Assembly (NCBI RefSeq): GCF_900113315.1
Contig: NZ_FOZG01000002.1
Span: 1,240,001 to 1,304,000, forward strand
DNA length: 64,000 nt
Reading direction: 5' to 3'
Origin: Sphingomonas jatrophae
Lineage (GTDB): Bacteria; Pseudomonadota; Alphaproteobacteria; Sphingomonadales; Sphingomonadaceae
A program made the translations under genes and the position numbers. Below the pieces are notes generated by a model, which saw only the letters and a program-made list of their open reading frames with translations, searched no databases and was not told the DNA's origin. Of this stretch, positions 47,655 to 57,239 are shown piece after piece (the stretch's first letter is position 1; each line of letters opens with the position of its first letter).

Positions 47655-48596
47655 TCACGGCGCGATCGGCCGCGGCCGCGCTTCGGCGAGGATCAGCGCG
47701 AACTGGTCCGCCGCGTCCGTCCATTCGGTAACCGGCGTCCAGCCGCCCGCGCGGAGCAGCAGGCGCGCGTCGCGGGCGCCATATTTGTGGCTGTTCTCGG
47801 TGTGGATGCCGCCGCCTTCGGCGATGCGGAAGTCCTGACCGGCGACGGTGAAGGCCACATCGCGGCGGGCGACGAGATGCATCTCGATCCGCGCGGCGGC
47901 GTCGTTCCAGCGGGCTTCGTGGGCGAAGGCGTCGACGGGTACGTCGGCCTCAAGCTCGCGGTTGATCCGGTGGAGCAGGTTGAGGTTGAACGCGGCGGTG
48001 ACGCCTGCGGCGTCGTCATAGGCGGGGATCAGGATTGCGGGGGACTTCACCCGGTCCATCCCGATCAGCAGCATCGCGCCGTCACCCAGCGTGCCTGCCA
48101 TGGCCCGCAGCAGATCGACCGCCGCCGCGGCATCGAGATTGCCGATGGTGGAGCCGGGAAAGAAGCCGAGCCGCGGCAGATCGGCGACCTCCGCCGGCAG
48201 CGCCAGCGGGCGGGTGAAATCGGCCTCGAGCGGCAGGACGGCGAGGCCGGGAAAGTCGCGCCCGAGCGCCGCCGCGCTGTCGCGCAGGAAATCGCCCGAT
48301 ATGTCGATCGGCACATAAGCGGCGGGGGCGACGGCGCGCAGCAGGTGCGGCGTCTTGGCGGAGGAGCCCGAGCCGAACTCGATCACCGCGCGGCCACGCC
48401 CGGCGGCTTCCGCAATGGCGGGGCCATATTCGGCGAGCAAAGCGGTCTCGACCCGCGTGGGGTAATATTCGGGCAGGTCGGTGATCCGCTCGAACAGCTC
48501 GGAGCCGCGCCGATCGTAGAACCATCGTGCGGGGATGGCCGGCGGGTCGGCGCGCAGGCCGGCGAGCACGTCGGCGCGGAAGGCGGGATCGGTCAT
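47655..48596 (-). CDS. egtD: L-histidine N-alpha-methyltransferase EgtD
   Basis: SAM-dependent enzyme that trimethylates histidine to hercynine, the first step of ergothioneine synthesis. The 313-residue protein has the EgtD start (VLAGLRADPPAIPARWFYD), the SAM-binding loop VIEFGSGSSAKT, the acidic VPIDIS strand and FFPGSTIGNLD. Lies 22 bases after egtB, so the pair is almost surely one operon. Complete. Confidence 0.94.
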   Translation of the reverse strand: MTDPAFRADVLAGLRADPPAIPARWFYDRRGSELFERITDLPEYYPTRVETALLAEYGPAIAEAAGRGRAVIEFGSGSSAKTPHLLRAVAPAAYVPIDISGDFLRDSAAALGRDFPGLAVLPLEADFTRPLALPAEVADLPRLGFFPGSTIGNLDAAAAVDLLRAMAGTLGDGAMLLIGMDRVKSPAILIPAYDDAAGVTAAFNLNLLHRINRELEADVPVDAFAHEARWNDAAARIEMHLVARRDVAFTVAGQDFRIAEGGGIHTENSHKYGARDARLLLRAGGWTPVTEWTDAADQFALILAEARPRPIAP

Positions 48597-48618
48597 CGGG
48601 GAGCTCCGTGGCGGATCG

Positions 48619-49881
48619 TCAGAGATCGCGCGCCAGACGCACGCCGGTGAACTGCCAGCGCTGATGCGGGTGGAAGAAGTTGCGATAGGACGCGCGCGAA
48701 TGGCCCCGCGGCGTCGCGCAGCTCGCGCCCTTCAGCACGAACTGGGCCGACATGAACTTGCCGTTATACTCGCCGACCGCACCCGCCGCGGGGCGGAAGC
48801 CGGGATAGGGGAGGAAGGCCGAGCCGGTCCATTCCCACACATCGCCGAACATCTGGCGCAGCCCGTCACCCACCGGGGCCGCGCGCGGGCGGACGGGGCC
48901 GGCGGCGTCGAGCTGGTTGCCCGCCGTCGGATCCATCCCCGCGGCACTCGCCTCCCACTCCGCCTCGGTCGGCAGGCGCGCGCCGGCCCAGCGGGCAAAG
49001 GCCTCCGCCTCGTAATAGCTGATATGCGTGACCGGCGCGGCGGGGTGGAGCGGATGCATCCCGTCCAGCGCGAACTGATGCCAGCGCCCGTTGACCTGCC
49101 GCCAGTGGAGCGGCGCGGAAATGCCCTCGGCGCGGACCCAGGCCCAGCCGTCGCTCAGCCAGTGATCCGGCCGGGTGTAGCCCCCGTCGTCGACGAAGGA
49201 CTGCCATTCGGCATTGGTGACCGGCCGATCCGCCAGCGCGTGCGGGTGGAGCAAAGCGGCGTGGCGCGGCCCTTCGCAGTCGAAGGCGAAGCCGCCGCCG
49301 TCATGGCCGATCTCGACGATGCCCTGCCGGCCCTCGATCCAGCGGATCGGCCCGGGATGGACCGCAGGCGCGGGGCGGGGGCGATCCCAGATGGCAGGCG
49401 CCAGGGGATTTTCGCCGAACAGGTGAAGGATGTCGGTCAGCAGCAATTCCTGGTGCTGCTGCTCATGGTGGATACCGAGCTCGACCAAGGCGACGGCGTC
49501 GGCGGGAAGGCGCGGCAGCGCGCGGGCGAGGGCGGCGTCCACCGCGGCGCGCCACGCGCGCACCCCGTCCAGCGTCGGCCGGGTCAGCAGGCCGCGGCGA
49601 TCGCGCGCGTGGCGGGCGCCCTCCGCCTCGTAATAGCTGTTGAACAGGAAGGCGAAGCGCGGATCGAACGCTTCGTAGCCGGCGACATGATCGCGCAGCA
49701 CGAACGTCTCGAAGAACCAGGTGGTGTGCGCGAGGTGCCATTTGGCGGGCGACGCATCCGGCATGGACTGGACGGTGGCATCCGCATCCGACAGCGGATC
49801 GACCAGCGCGAGGCTGAGCGCGCGGGTGGCGGCGAAACGCTGCGCCAGCGCGCCCGCCTGATCCTCAACCCTTGTCGCCAA
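48619..49881 (-). CDS. egtB: Ergothioneine sulfoxide synthase EgtB
   Basis: Non-heme iron oxygenase that joins hercynine to a thiol (cysteine or gamma-glutamylcysteine) through a C-S bond. The 420-residue protein has an N-terminal DinB-like domain and a C-terminal formylglycine-generating-enzyme-like domain (LPTEAEWEASAAG, MFGDVWEWTGSAF, GASCATPRGHSRASYRNFF). H52, H139 and H143 fit the three-histidine iron site (HLAHTTWFFE; HHEQQHQELL). The start is a TTG at 49881 supported by a GGGAGGG site. No egtA, egtC or egtE gene is near, so the sulfur donor and final lyase step must involve other loci. Confidence 0.93.
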   Translation of the reverse strand: MATRVEDQAGALAQRFAATRALSLALVDPLSDADATVQSMPDASPAKWHLAHTTWFFETFVLRDHVAGYEAFDPRFAFLFNSYYEAEGARHARDRRGLLTRPTLDGVRAWRAAVDAALARALPRLPADAVALVELGIHHEQQHQELLLTDILHLFGENPLAPAIWDRPRPAPAVHPGPIRWIEGRQGIVEIGHDGGGFAFDCEGPRHAALLHPHALADRPVTNAEWQSFVDDGGYTRPDHWLSDGWAWVRAEGISAPLHWRQVNGRWHQFALDGMHPLHPAAPVTHISYYEAEAFARWAGARLPTEAEWEASAAGMDPTAGNQLDAAGPVRPRAAPVGDGLRQMFGDVWEWTGSAFLPYPGFRPAAGAVGEYNGKFMSAQFVLKGASCATPRGHSRASYRNFFHPHQRWQFTGVRLARDL

Positions 49882-52360: not shown

Positions 52361-52783
52361 CTACAGCAGGTAGCGTACCGTCACCGGCTCGGCGATCATG
52401 CGGTTGTCGAGCGTGAAGCGCGCGGCATCGAAGCGCGGCGGGCCGAAGCGGATCGCGGGGTTGCGCGAAAAGCCGAAGCCTTCGCGCGGCAGGCCGGCGA
52501 AGGTATCCAGCTTGCGATTGCCATTCTCGTCGTGGATCAGCGCGACGGCGTAATTGCCGGACGCGAGCCCGTCGAAGCGGAGCGCGCGGCCGTCCGCCGG
52601 CACGCTCAGCCGCCTGGCCGCAGGATCGGTCTGGCAATCGGGGAACTTGCCCGGATTGGCGGTGAGGCAGGCGCGAATTTCACCCTTGGTCGAGCGCAGG
52701 CCGGAGAGCGGCACCTCGACACCCGCGGTCGGGCTGGCGCCGCTAAGCGCTGCGGCGAGCGCGCCCAGGCCCGCGAGGCGCAT
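52361..52783 (-). CDS. DUF2141 secreted protein
   Basis: A 140-residue protein with a signal peptide (MRLAGLGALAAALSGASPTA) and a beta-sandwich DUF2141 domain. Typical blocks are GEIRACLTANPGKFPDC, GNYAVALIHDENGNRKLDTF and GLPREGFGFSRNPAIRFGPP. The ATG at 52783 lies inside the 3' end of the sterol-desaturase gene, overlapping it by 41 bases in another frame. Members often adjoin carotenoid or lipid-modifying genes. Reaction or ligand unknown. Confidence 0.88.
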   Translation of the reverse strand: MRLAGLGALAAALSGASPTAGVEVPLSGLRSTKGEIRACLTANPGKFPDCQTDPAARRLSVPADGRALRFDGLASGNYAVALIHDENGNRKLDTFAGLPREGFGFSRNPAIRFGPPRFDAARFTLDNRMIAEPVTVRYLL

Positions 52784-53495
52784 CGGCAAAGCTGCCGAGC
52801 CCCTTGTCCGTGCCGCAGAGACGATCCCAGAACCGAAAATAGAGGCCATAATTGCACCTGTAATCGACATGGTGCCGCTGGTGGTGGCTCGCGGTGATCA
52901 GCCAGCGCCCCCCGGCGCCCTTGACCAGACGGTCCGGGAAGATTTCCCAGCCCATATGGTTGGTCACGCCCATAAAGGTCATGACCGACAGCACAATGCC
53001 AAGTGCGGCGACGTGGATCGGAATGACGAACACCAGTGTCGGAATTACCACGGCGCCGGTCAGCGACTCCCAGGGGTGAAAGCTCATCGCCGTCCAGGCG
53101 GTCGGCGGGCGGCTCTGGTGGTGGACCGCGTGCATGCGGCGGAACAGCCGGGGATCGTGCATCAGCCGGTGGGTCCAGTAGAACCATGCGTCGTGCGCCA
53201 GCAGGTAGAGCAGCACCGAGGCGGGCAGCCACCAGAGCGGCATCGCGTTCACATCGGCGTAGATGCGCGTCCAGCCATGCGCCTGCCAGCCCCATGCGAC
53301 GATGCCGGCGGGCAGGCCGTAGATTGCGGCGGCGGCGAAGCTCCAGCCGATCTCGCGCCCGATCTGCGCGCCGCGGTCGGCATAAAGGCCGGGCAGGCGC
53401 CGTGCGGTGACGAGCGCGAACACGCCCGAGACGATGACGTAGCGCACGGCGACGATCGCGATCATCGCAAGCGCGGAGAGGATGAGGGCGGGCAT
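52743..53495 (-). CDS. Sterol desaturase/fatty acid hydroxylase superfamily protein
   Basis: A 250-residue membrane di-iron oxygenase. The histidine clusters that bind iron are HDAWFYWTHRLMH, HAVHHQS and, after more helices, HHQRHH. Members hydroxylate sterols, fatty acids, ceramides or carotenoids; which one applies here is open, but carotenoid or sphingolipid tailoring would suit a sphingomonad. Co-directional and overlapping with the DUF2141 gene; 42 bases separate it from the barrel-protein gene upstream. Confidence 0.9.
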   Translation of the reverse strand: MPALILSALAMIAIVAVRYVIVSGVFALVTARRLPGLYADRGAQIGREIGWSFAAAAIYGLPAGIVAWGWQAHGWTRIYADVNAMPLWWLPASVLLYLLAHDAWFYWTHRLMHDPRLFRRMHAVHHQSRPPTAWTAMSFHPWESLTGAVVIPTLVFVIPIHVAALGIVLSVMTFMGVTNHMGWEIFPDRLVKGAGGRWLITASHHQRHHVDYRCNYGLYFRFWDRLCGTDKGLGSFADAPRGPGRARRSA

Positions 53496-53537: not shown

Positions 53538-54548
53538 TCAGAAATCGGTGGCGAGCGTGAGCGCCACGCCCGACCCCGGTGCCGCCCGGCCGGCGACGCG
53601 CAGCCGTCCTTCGAGCGCCAGCGTGGCGGGCGCGTCGGCGAGCGGCAGCGTGACGGCGGCGCGCGGGCCGACATCGAGCCTGGCGACGCCGGGCTGCGCC
53701 GCGCCCCAGGCGCCGGCGCCGAGCGACAGCGGCCCTGCGACGCGGCGCCCGGCCCGGATCGCGCCGTCGGCGAACAGATCGCCCGCACGGGCGCCGACCA
53801 GGCCCGCCTGCGCGTAGGCGTCGAGATCGATGCCGTTCACCTGCCGCCAGGCGCCGCCCGCCGCGTAGAGGCTCCACGCATTGCGGGCGTGCGCGCCGAG
53901 CGCGATGCGCCGTTCCGCCGAGAGTCGGACGGCGACCTGTTCCGCCGGCTGCCAGTCCAGCCCAACCGCCGCTTCCAGCCCGCGACGATCGTGCAGCGGG
54001 GCGGAGACGCGTGCGGCGACGGCGAAGCCGCTGCCGATGCTGCGGGCGACGCGCAGGCCCGCCTGCGATCCGCCGAGCTGGCCGCCGGGGGCAAGCCCGG
54101 CCCGGCCGCTGCCGCTCCGCGCAAACAGCCAGGCCGAGGCGCGGAAGCGGGCGGCACGCTCGGCCGGATCGAGCCGCGGCACCGGGCCGGCGGGTTGCGT
54201 CCAGCGGATCGGCTGCGTGGCGGAGGCGAGCAGGACGGCCATGGACAGGCGGCGTTCGAGGTCTGCCGCGCCGGATGCGAGCGGCGGAGGCGTGTTCGCG
54301 CCGGCAGCCGCCACGGCGGGCGGCATGAAGGGCGCGGCGCGGGCCGGGACAAGGTCCGCCGAGCTGGCGACCGGATCGGACAGAGCGGCGATCCGGCGCT
54401 CGAACGGCGTGGGCTCGGCCAAGGGGATGTGCCACTCCGACAAAGCGGCCTGCACCGGCGTCCACGGCACCAGCCAGGCCCCGCGCGCACCCGCCCAGCT
54501 GGCGATGACGAGCGCGAGGAAGCGCAGCGGCGGACGGCGGATCGGCAT
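53538..54548 (-). CDS. NfrA-C-terminal-like outer-membrane barrel protein (putative)
   Basis: A 336-residue protein with an N-terminal hydrophobic export segment (LRFLALVIASWAGARGAWL), a proline- and alanine-rich linker to about residue 130, and a C-terminal half of alternating strands ending in ALTLATDF, a terminal phenylalanine as in outer-membrane barrels. Segments such as VGLDWQPAEQVAVRLSAERR and WSLYAAGGAWRQVNGIDLDAYAQAG recall the C-terminal domain of phage N4 adsorption protein NfrA. Unlike NfrA it has no TPR region. It starts four bases after an NfrB-like glycosyltransferase gene, which supports the guess. Alternative: an unrelated secreted protein. Confidence 0.65.
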   Translation of the reverse strand: MPIRRPPLRFLALVIASWAGARGAWLVPWTPVQAALSEWHIPLAEPTPFERRIAALSDPVASSADLVPARAAPFMPPAVAAAGANTPPPLASGAADLERRLSMAVLLASATQPIRWTQPAGPVPRLDPAERAARFRASAWLFARSGSGRAGLAPGGQLGGSQAGLRVARSIGSGFAVAARVSAPLHDRRGLEAAVGLDWQPAEQVAVRLSAERRIALGAHARNAWSLYAAGGAWRQVNGIDLDAYAQAGLVGARAGDLFADGAIRAGRRVAGPLSLGAGAWGAAQPGVARLDVGPRAAVTLPLADAPATLALEGRLRVAGRAAPGSGVALTLATDF

Positions 54549-54552
54549 GAGG

Positions 54553-55944
54553 TTATTCGGCCGGCAGCGTGGCGGGGAAGACGTGCGCCGTCTTGTCCCA
54601 CTGCGGCGGGTGCGGCGACAGATAGCGGCGCAGCGCCCGCCACGAGCTGGCGATCAGCACGAAATTGGCGACCACCAGCCGCGGCATCGACCAGAGCCCT
54701 TCCTTCGCACCGTAGATGCGGCTGACGAACAGCACGCGCATGCCGACCCGCCAGCCGAGCAGCAGCGTGAGCGCGATGCCGAGCGCATCGGGCCGCCACA
54801 GCATGATTGCGGGCTCACCCGCGGCGAGGCGCAGCAAGGTGGCGAGCAGGCCCATGAGCGCGCCCGCATAGCCGGCCGTCAGCACCAGCGCGGCGAGCGG
54901 CGCGCGCCGATCCCGCAGCCGCATCCACGCCTCCGCCGGGCCGCCGGCCCAGCCGAGCCGATCCCAGCCGGCGAACGCGATCCCGTCGATCCAGCGCGCC
55001 TTCTGCCGCACCGCTTCGCCGAAGGTCGCGGGGAAATGCGCGCGCACCGCAACGAAATTGTCTTCGTTGCGGTGTTTCCGGTCTTCCGGCCTGACCAGCA
55101 TGCGGACAAAGGCGGCGCGCGCACCGAGATCGCCCATGCGCAGCCCGAGTTCATAATCCTCGGTGACGCTGCCTTCATCGAACGGGGAGCCGCCGTGAAG
55201 CCGCGCCATCTCGTCCAGCGCGGCGCGCGAAAGCGCACAGCCGGTGCCGGCGAGTGGGACGCCTGCGCCGACGAGCTCGCGCACAAGCAGCGTCTTGGTG
55301 TGCGATTCGCCGAATTCATCGGCATAGTGGCGGCTGACCCAGCTGGCGCCGGAGAGCGGCAGCACCGGCAGCTGGACGATATCGAACCGGCCGACCAGCG
55401 CGGAGAAGACGGTCAGTTCGTCCCGGTGGACCTGATCCTCGGCGTCGTGGATCGCGACGATGCTGGCGACGGGGCCACCCCGCGCCTCTTCCTCCAGCAT
55501 CGCGGCATAACAGCGGTTGAGCGCTTCGGACTTGCTGGTCGGCCCGTTCCGGTCGCCATGCACGATGCGCACCTTCGGATCGAGGGCGAAGTCTGCGTGC
55601 AGCTCCCACAAGGTCGCGTAATCATTGGGATAGACACCGATGTAGAGGCGGTAGTCGGCATCGCCCCAGCGCCGCCGGGCGTGCTTCACCATCTTGCCGA
55701 TGACGCCCGCTTCGTCCCACGCGCCGACGAAGATGGCGATGTGCGGTGCCACGTCCGGCAGCGTCAGCGTGCCGACATGCGCGCGCCTGCCCGGCCAGTT
55801 GACGCGGATCTGCTTCCAGCCCCGCCGTGCGAAGAAGATCAGGTCGACGGCAAGGTCGTCCACCCCGCCGATCAGCAGACCGGCGGCGGCGAACAACAGC
55901 AGTTCGCGCGCGAGCGCGTCCGTCAGCCAGATCAACTCCGTCAT
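54553..55944 (-). CDS. NfrB-like processive family 2 glycosyltransferase
   Basis: Membrane glycosyltransferase of 463 residues. An N-terminal hydrophobic region (about 12-38) precedes the catalytic domain, and three or four helices close the protein (about 350-435). All processive GT2 motifs are present: HDAED (166-170), TED (261-263) and QKARW (314-318, fitting QxxRW). GPTSKSEALNRCY is typical of the NfrB/cellulose-synthase-like group. It lacks a PilZ domain, and the c-di-GMP-binding C-terminal region of E. coli NfrB (a protein of about 745 residues) is absent. Product likely an exopolysaccharide exported with the adjacent barrel protein. A GGDEF gene lies 77 bases upstream. Confidence 0.85.
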   Translation of the reverse strand: MTELIWLTDALARELLLFAAAGLLIGGVDDLAVDLIFFARRGWKQIRVNWPGRRAHVGTLTLPDVAPHIAIFVGAWDEAGVIGKMVKHARRRWGDADYRLYIGVYPNDYATLWELHADFALDPKVRIVHGDRNGPTSKSEALNRCYAAMLEEEARGGPVASIVAIHDAEDQVHRDELTVFSALVGRFDIVQLPVLPLSGASWVSRHYADEFGESHTKTLLVRELVGAGVPLAGTGCALSRAALDEMARLHGGSPFDEGSVTEDYELGLRMGDLGARAAFVRMLVRPEDRKHRNEDNFVAVRAHFPATFGEAVRQKARWIDGIAFAGWDRLGWAGGPAEAWMRLRDRRAPLAALVLTAGYAGALMGLLATLLRLAAGEPAIMLWRPDALGIALTLLLGWRVGMRVLFVSRIYGAKEGLWSMPRLVVANFVLIASSWRALRRYLSPHPPQWDKTAHVFPATLPAE

Positions 55945-56021
55945 CGGTGCCCCCTCCGATTCGGCGGGTCATTCATCCGAAACGGATCGGTTGGGGGCAA
56001 GGACTTTCGGTTAGCGGGCCT

Positions 56022-57077
56022 TTAAGCCTCGATGCGGTTCCGCCCGGCCTGCTTGGCCCGGTAGAGCAGGGTGTCGGCGCGGCGGATCGCGGCGGCGCAG
56101 CTTTCCGCGCCCTTCAGGGCGACGAGGCCGGCGGAGAAGGTGAGCGTGCCGAGTTCGCGTCCGGTGCCCGCCACCTTAAGCGTCCGCCCGGCGAGATCGG
56201 CGCGGGTGGCGTCGAGCAGCGCGCGCGCGGCGGGCAGCGGAGTGCCGTCGAACAGGATGATGAACTCCTCGCCGCCGTGGCGGCCGACGAGGTGGCCCGT
56301 GCAACCGCGCAGCAGCTCCTTGCCGACGAGCTGGATCACGCGGTCGCCCACCTCATGCCCGTGAACGTCGTTGACCGCCTTGAACCGGTCGATGTCGATC
56401 AGGGCGACGGCAAGCGGACGCGCCTCGGCGATCGCCGTTTCGCGTGCCTCGGCAAAGCGCGCGGCGAAGGCGCGGCGATTGGGCAGAGCGGTCAGCGGGT
56501 CGGTCTCCGCATCGGCCCGCGCAGCGGCGAGGCTGGCGCGCAGCTCCGCCATTTCGGCACCCGTCGCGCGCAGCCGTTCCTCGGCCTGCCGGGTCGTATC
56601 GATCATCGTGCGGGTGATGTCGAGCAGCGCCGCCACCGCCTCGAGATCGAGCGCATCGGCAGCGGCGATCCCCGCGGCCCCTTGTTCCAGCGCATCGCCG
56701 AAGCGGGCCGCATCGTCGCGCGAGCTGTCGACCAGGCCGGAGAAGCTGTCGAACCGGGCCTGCGCCTCGCCGATCATCTGTGCCAGCGCGGCGGGCGAGA
56801 CCGGGGCGGAGCCGCCGGTGTCGGGGATCGCCATGATCGTGTCGGCATCCTGCTGCGTCAGCCCCGCGCCGCCGGCAAGCGCGGCATCGACCGCCGCGAC
56901 GATGCGCGGGTCGCGCTCCACATAGGCGTGGGCCAGCGCATAATTGCCGGGGCTCGGCCGCAGATCGTGATCGAACAGCAGCACGCCCGCGCGGTAATAG
57001 ATGTCCCGGTCCGCCGACATGGCCGGAACAGGCGCAGTTGCCCCGAACAGGCCGGCAAGCCGCCCCGGTGATCGCAT
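56022..57077 (-). CDS. Diguanylate cyclase (GGDEF domain)
   Basis: A 351-residue soluble protein with a C-terminal GGDEF domain (about 190-350) that should make c-di-GMP from two GTP. Active-site motif RHGGEEF at 266-272, with DPLTALPNRR and DIDRFKAVND also intact. The inhibitory RxxD site upstream is replaced by C259-T-G-H262, so product inhibition is probably absent. The N-terminal about 185 residues are helical, without a known sensor domain. I choose the ATG at 57077; a GTG at 57089 adds four residues. Same strand and 77 bases upstream of the NfrB-like gene. Confidence 0.9.
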   Translation of the reverse strand: MRSPGRLAGLFGATAPVPAMSADRDIYYRAGVLLFDHDLRPSPGNYALAHAYVERDPRIVAAVDAALAGGAGLTQQDADTIMAIPDTGGSAPVSPAALAQMIGEAQARFDSFSGLVDSSRDDAARFGDALEQGAAGIAAADALDLEAVAALLDITRTMIDTTRQAEERLRATGAEMAELRASLAAARADAETDPLTALPNRRAFAARFAEARETAIAEARPLAVALIDIDRFKAVNDVHGHEVGDRVIQLVGKELLRGCTGHLVGRHGGEEFIILFDGTPLPAARALLDATRADLAGRTLKVAGTGRELGTLTFSAGLVALKGAESCAAAIRRADTLLYRAKQAGRNRIEA

Positions 57078-57239
57078 CGTCTTCAGCACTTCCGCCCCGC
57101 TCTTCTTCCCCCGGCAAGGACGCTAGGCGAAGCTGGGTTAAGGCGCCGTTGATGGCGTTCGGGCGCGGGGTTGCCTGTCCGTGTCGGCCGGGGGCATAAG
57201 CGCGCCTTCTTCCAACATCCCGGAAAACCGAGCGTCTCC

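Follow-up and report, generated by a model that had tools for sequence, protein, structure and literature searches.

The window analysed here, a stretch of 64,000 nucleotides from Sphingomonas jatrophae, carries on its minus strand a gene for a GGDEF protein, followed after 77 nt by a gene for a family 2 glycosyltransferase (GT2) and, after a further 4 nt, by a gene for a small barrel-like protein (Table 1). The first-pass annotation had described these three co-directional genes with their spacing and motifs, and the coordinates, motifs and Pfam matches obtained here agree with it. Position 57077, the upper limit of the region it considered, corresponds to the fifth codon of the GGDEF gene, an ATG in frame with the GTG start at 57089. 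A GGAGGGG stretch resembling a ribosome-binding site lies ahead of the GT2 gene, and a search for terminator-like sites across the three-gene region found none, so co-transcription of the genes is possible. Beyond the barrel gene, an FA_hydroxylase gene (window 52743-53495) starts after 42 nt, an order shared with locus L062 (74% identity) and with no other context locus, and two minus-strand ORFs (window 47655-49881) presumably resemble the EgtD/EgtB ergothioneine pair. Because the ORF caller was rough, neighbours other than the GT2, barrel and GGDEF genes are indicative only.

Table 1 Features of the three-gene locus, in window coordinates
Feature	Coordinates	Strand	Properties and evidence
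GGDEF gene	57089-56022	-	GTG start; GGEEF intact; PF00990 2.1e-34
NfrB-like GT2 synthase (putative), 463 aa	54553..55944	-	HDAED/TED/QKARW; stops before the MshEN tail position of NfrB
NfrA-C-like barrel protein (predicted), 336 aa, no TPR	53538..54548	-	Profile match to NfrA_C-bearing relatives; GT2 adjacency
N-terminal hydrophobic helix of barrel protein, residues 6-26	54471..54533	-	Near-invariant W18, R22 (W-x3-R)
Ala/Pro-rich linker, residues 29-132, in place of TPRs	54153..54464	-	Mostly low pLDDT
12-stranded beta-barrel domain (predicted), residues 133-336, C-terminal Phe	53541..54152	-	AF2 strands; outer-membrane channel matches

The GT2 protein matches PF13641 (Glyco_tranf_2_3, 4.5e-33) and, over nearly its full length, NF011307, with 454.5 bits against a curated cut-off of 431; NF008411 (NfrB, c-di-GMP-activated glycosyltransferase) scores 288 bits, below its equivalog cut-off of 1170. 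Residues 3-479 of E. coli NfrB align colinearly with it (34% identity, E 1e-75), and it ends 5 residues past the last residue so aligned, at the point right after which E. coli NfrB has its MshEN motif pair. The MshEN domain of NfrB binds c-di-GMP (PMC8669469). PilZ or T2SSE_N (MshEN)-type Pfam models gave 0 matches across 47 GT2 relatives; as this test misses short MshEN-like tails too, it is weak for the absence of MshEN, for which the window protein's length argues more strongly. Across 47 relatives the HDAED, TED and QxxRW catalytic motifs are invariant. A sequence search of the PDB with the GT2 protein found no match, and the solved folds nearest to its AlphaFold (AF2) model (pLDDT 93.2) are those of cellulose (BcsA) and hyaluronan synthases.

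Sequence searches of Pfam, NCBIfam and the PDB with the third protein returned no match of its own. Its AF2 model begins with a helix (residues 6-26) and a mostly low-confidence stretch, after which 12 strands span residues 135-335, with most strand blocks above a pLDDT of 84; the protein ends in ALTLATDF. Solved outer-membrane channels match the predicted barrel with Z up to 13.2, and the barrel's structure matches include 4y25, a polysaccharide secretin of the outer membrane. PF13283 (NfrA_C) matched neither this protein nor anything else in its whole genome, and it weakly matched 4 of 35 barrels from the window's family, Sphingomonadaceae. A profile of those 35 barrels aligns over 220 columns (prob 99.3, E 9e-21) with 10 barrels that come from different families within the order, all 10 of which contain NfrA_C and 8 of which contain matches to TPR models. 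Given the lack of a PF13283 match in the genome itself, the link to NfrA is made through these relatives. Pfam TPR models found nothing in the window barrel protein, where an Ala/Pro-rich, low-confidence linker stands instead. The third gene is predicted to encode a barrel of the outer membrane with kinship to the C-terminal part of NfrA, a tie visible by profile only.

The first-pass annotation had proposed an NfrB-like synthase without the c-di-GMP-binding tail, next to an NfrA-C-like barrel without the TPR part. The former is borne out by its identity to NfrB and by an end point ahead of MshEN, and the latter by the barrel in the AF2 model of the 336-residue protein, the profile link to NfrA_C-bearing relatives and the absence of a TPR match. 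As for the named families, the synthase is homologous to NfrB and passes NF011307 yet misses the NF008411 cut-off, and the third protein has no direct PF13283 match but a profile match to relatives that all have one.

The GT2 gene is present in 258 of 299 genomes and in 87 of the 96 sampled genera of Sphingomonadaceae. Scanning named genomes with the single GT2 sequence found no relative; an alignment was used as query instead and recovered 515, almost only from Sphingomonadaceae or Sphingomonadales. Counts for named loci refer to the 80 best, 76 of which have enough sequence past the GT2 gene to judge the barrel. A barrel gene follows on the same strand in 75 of the 76, the sole locus without one seen being L218, and it overlaps or adjoins the GT2 gene in nearly all relatives. 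That the pair recurs in nearly every sphingomonad examined argues that its association is more than chance. A literature search with little subscription-journal coverage found no report of an Nfr system in sphingomonads.

Several other genes recur around the pair. In many relatives, though not in the window, it is followed by TauE/SafE, Alph_Pro_TM and HerA-type ATPase genes (e.g., L065 10583-14092), which we treat as neighbourhood and not as parts of the system. An autoinducer-synthase gene (PF00765, scanned in L079) lies just upstream of the GT2 gene at L079 6161-7105, in a cluster also found in L078 and L094 and so in three genera. Furthermore, several genera have a divergent ORF upstream of the GT2 gene, roughly 1900 aa long and without a Pfam match (L159 8835-14609 and seven similar ORFs).

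Relatives outside the family indicate how the short form may have arisen. The MshEN motif pair has a consensus of 24 + 5 + 24 residues. MshEN-like motif pairs come after a W-x-KT-x-H motif in L080, L086, L087 and L089, all from the order, and in class-level homologues, and 8 of 9 class-level matches outside the family extend into an MshEN-like tail. In the GT2 tree, drawn at midpoint, rows that carry MshEN fall together with E. coli NfrB, and members of the family form a supported clade without the tail; with the root placed at E. coli NfrB, the tail would have been lost and not gained. L068 and L079, the first branches inside the family, each have one TPR-like repeat seen by eye. Since MshEN tails, TPRs or both are retained beyond the family, the MshEN switch and the TPR scaffold were, judging from these sequences, probably lost stepwise, and such intermediate forms fit the earlier description of the system as a miniaturised relative.

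The GGDEF gene behaves otherwise. The first-pass annotation had counted its diguanylate cyclase as a linked partner and all three genes as a unit; the GT2 and barrel genes do stay together in relatives, but the GGDEF gene does not, and we reject it as a conserved partner. One BLAST query at 1e-5, which a distant GGDEF could escape, found no GGDEF beside the 80 best named loci in flanks of up to 5 kb, nor is there one at L062, the nearest GT2 relative in the tree. Homologues of the window GGDEF lie about 550 kb from the GT2 gene in genome G118, on other contigs in G180 and G230, and in G032, G071 and G092, where the GT2 gene is absent at the threshold used. Elsewhere, a divergent GGDEF is among the GT2 neighbours in L068, and in L063, L092 and L170 a GGDEF lies several kb away. 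In L158 (5301-8309), the GT2 gene is preceded in the same direction by a GGDEF and a GAF-domain gene that overlap by 4 nt, the GAF gene in between; this GGDEF is a different protein, with 34% identity to that of the window over the domain. Because 22 GGDEF genes are present in the genome and this one is not retained at the same place in relatives, its adjacency does not clearly exceed chance. The GGDEF protein is therefore probably not a conserved partner of the pair, and a c-di-GMP link rests on adjacency in this genome.

WecB/NfrC-like epimerase or diguanylate cyclase genes have been reported to neighbour NfrB homologues (PMC8669469). In a similar way, the gene immediately upstream of the GT2 gene in G038, G050 and G055, from one related family of the order, encodes a UDP-GlcNAc 2-epimerase. 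Epimerase_2 was found in 43 of 44 genomes with the GT2 gene and in 8 of 16 without it (p 4e-5), an association confounded by kinship and weaker inside the family (p 0.066). The genome of the window has one Epimerase_2 (PF02350) gene, located elsewhere than the pair, and an ORF beside it resembles, by eye, a UDP-ManNAc dehydrogenase. UDP-ManNAc is accordingly a candidate donor, the first to consider. This sole epimerase gene also adjoins, within L174 6597-12258, ORFs resembling, by eye, a phage-type portal and terminase, so that a gene transfer agent or prophage is possible there.

The near-invariant helix with which the barrel protein begins fits no category we know of. A W-x3-R motif occurs near the start in 75 of 75 named loci, where we roughly estimate from composition a chance expectation of about 0.1 match per sequence, and, by regular expression, in 38 of 40 context loci (L062 has Tyr for Trp); among the context-locus alignment rows that reach the column, Trp is found in 30 of 30 and Arg in 31 of 32. 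Relatives outside the family do not have the motif at that place. The helix comes after the GT2 gene even in L076 and L169, where no barrel was matched at first, and in L079 and L092 helix and barrel lie in different frames, perhaps through assembly errors. Residues 29-130, which follow it, are 23% Ala and 17% Pro.

Taken together, we favour a reading, with somewhat better than even confidence, in which synthase and barrel form a reduced Nfr-type synthase/exporter freed from c-di-GMP control. Seated in the inner membrane, the GT2 protein would use a nucleotide-sugar donor to build a polymer chain and push it outward, and the barrel protein would serve as the outer-membrane pore that exports it. 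With the MshEN switch and the periplasmic TPR scaffold absent, output would depend on how strongly the genes are expressed or on the supply of substrate instead of c-di-GMP, and the W-x3-R helix and linker would stand in for the scaffold.

This reading has to be weighed against others at each of its steps. The GT2 protein could instead attach a single sugar, or a few, to a lipid or a protein, with the barrel as a separate, co-travelling channel: many GT2 proteins are non-processive, the polymer product is putative, and the solved fold matches also include single-sugar transferases and a mannosyltransferase. We regard this as unlikely, however, as TED and QxxRW, kept in 47 of 47 relatives, are typical of processive glycosyltransferases (PMC8669469), polymer synthases are the top fold matches, and the barrel gene is so closely coupled in nearly all relatives. 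It is also conceivable that the neighbouring GGDEF protein, as a local source of c-di-GMP, drives the synthase by direct contact or through an unrecognised binding site, since E. coli DgcJ serves NfrB through direct contact (PMC8669469), the short co-directional spacing has no terminator-like site, the GGEEF motif is intact, and L158 provides another genome with GGDEF and GAF genes upstream of the GT2 gene. Nonetheless, we find such local control quite improbable: the search around the 80 named loci turned up no GGDEF, the closest relative has none there, homologues of the window GGDEF lie elsewhere and even in genomes lacking the GT2 gene, the synthase has neither MshEN nor PilZ, and neither synthase nor barrel has a recognisable c-di-GMP site. 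Possibly, a c-di-GMP-binding partner, or a diguanylate cyclase acting on the pair, is encoded elsewhere in the genome.

One possible role of the helix is that of an anchor in the inner membrane, left uncleaved, which would tie the pore to the synthase. In the fullest version of this idea, which we put forward tentatively and think rather doubtful, the helix would remain inserted in the inner membrane and dock on the synthase via W18 and R22, while the barrel sits in the outer membrane, so that one polypeptide spans the envelope and two proteins make up a glycan machine needing neither TPR scaffold nor c-di-GMP. The helix could also belong to an unusual yet ordinary cleaved signal peptide on a plain outer-membrane pore without an inner-membrane tether, a serious contender that we place a little below even. 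Its positively charged start and hydrophobic core are as in signal peptides, and several out-of-family relatives begin with apparent classical ones; on the other hand, near-invariant Trp and Arg within a hydrophobic stretch are unlike a signal peptide, and in the window protein no cleavage site of the usual small-residue kind is seen by eye just past the helix, Arg22 occupying position -3 for a cut after Ala24.

Our analysis proposes a testable function for the pair, whose glycosyltransferase is found in most of the sampled genera. The intermediate forms outline a route by which an exopolysaccharide machine gated by c-di-GMP may have come to lack switch and scaffold, and the near-invariant helix is a possible link between an outer-membrane pore and its synthase. 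Moreover, the Nfr glycan serves as a receptor for phage in E. coli, which makes the product of the pair a candidate surface receptor in sphingomonads.

Among known systems, the synthase-pore systems BcsA-BcsC and PgaC-PgaA resemble the pair in that the GT2 fold is nearest to BcsA and the secretin 4y25 is among the barrel matches. Pores of these types are built with TPR scaffolds, and a PilZ c-di-GMP domain is part of BcsA, whereas neither TPR scaffold nor PilZ was found in the window pair. The GT2 protein exceeds the cut-off of NF011307 (PRK14716.1-5, 'glycosyl transferase family protein'), a family whose name assigns no function and which says nothing about a partner barrel. With the E. coli NfrB-NfrA pair, the N4 glycan receptor system used by phage N4 (PMC8669469, PMC8669472), it shares an inner-membrane GT2 with HDAED, TED and QxxRW and an adjoining gene for an outer-membrane barrel of the NfrA C-terminal type; it differs in having neither MshEN tail, TPRs nor a conserved diguanylate cyclase, in the W-x3-R helix at the barrel start, and in 12 predicted strands where NfrA is modelled with 16 (PMC8669472). 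By sequence comparison, then, the pair is homologous to NfrBA yet outside the NfrB and NfrA definitions on MshEN and TPR. Nfr homologues with a neighbouring WecB-like epimerase have a counterpart in the related family of the order in which the epimerase directly precedes the GT2 gene, whereas in the window genome the epimerase lies elsewhere and the diguanylate cyclase is not conserved. Finally, although alphaproteobacterial Nfr homologues have been reported as occasional (PMC8669469), the GT2-barrel pair is nearly universal in one of their families.
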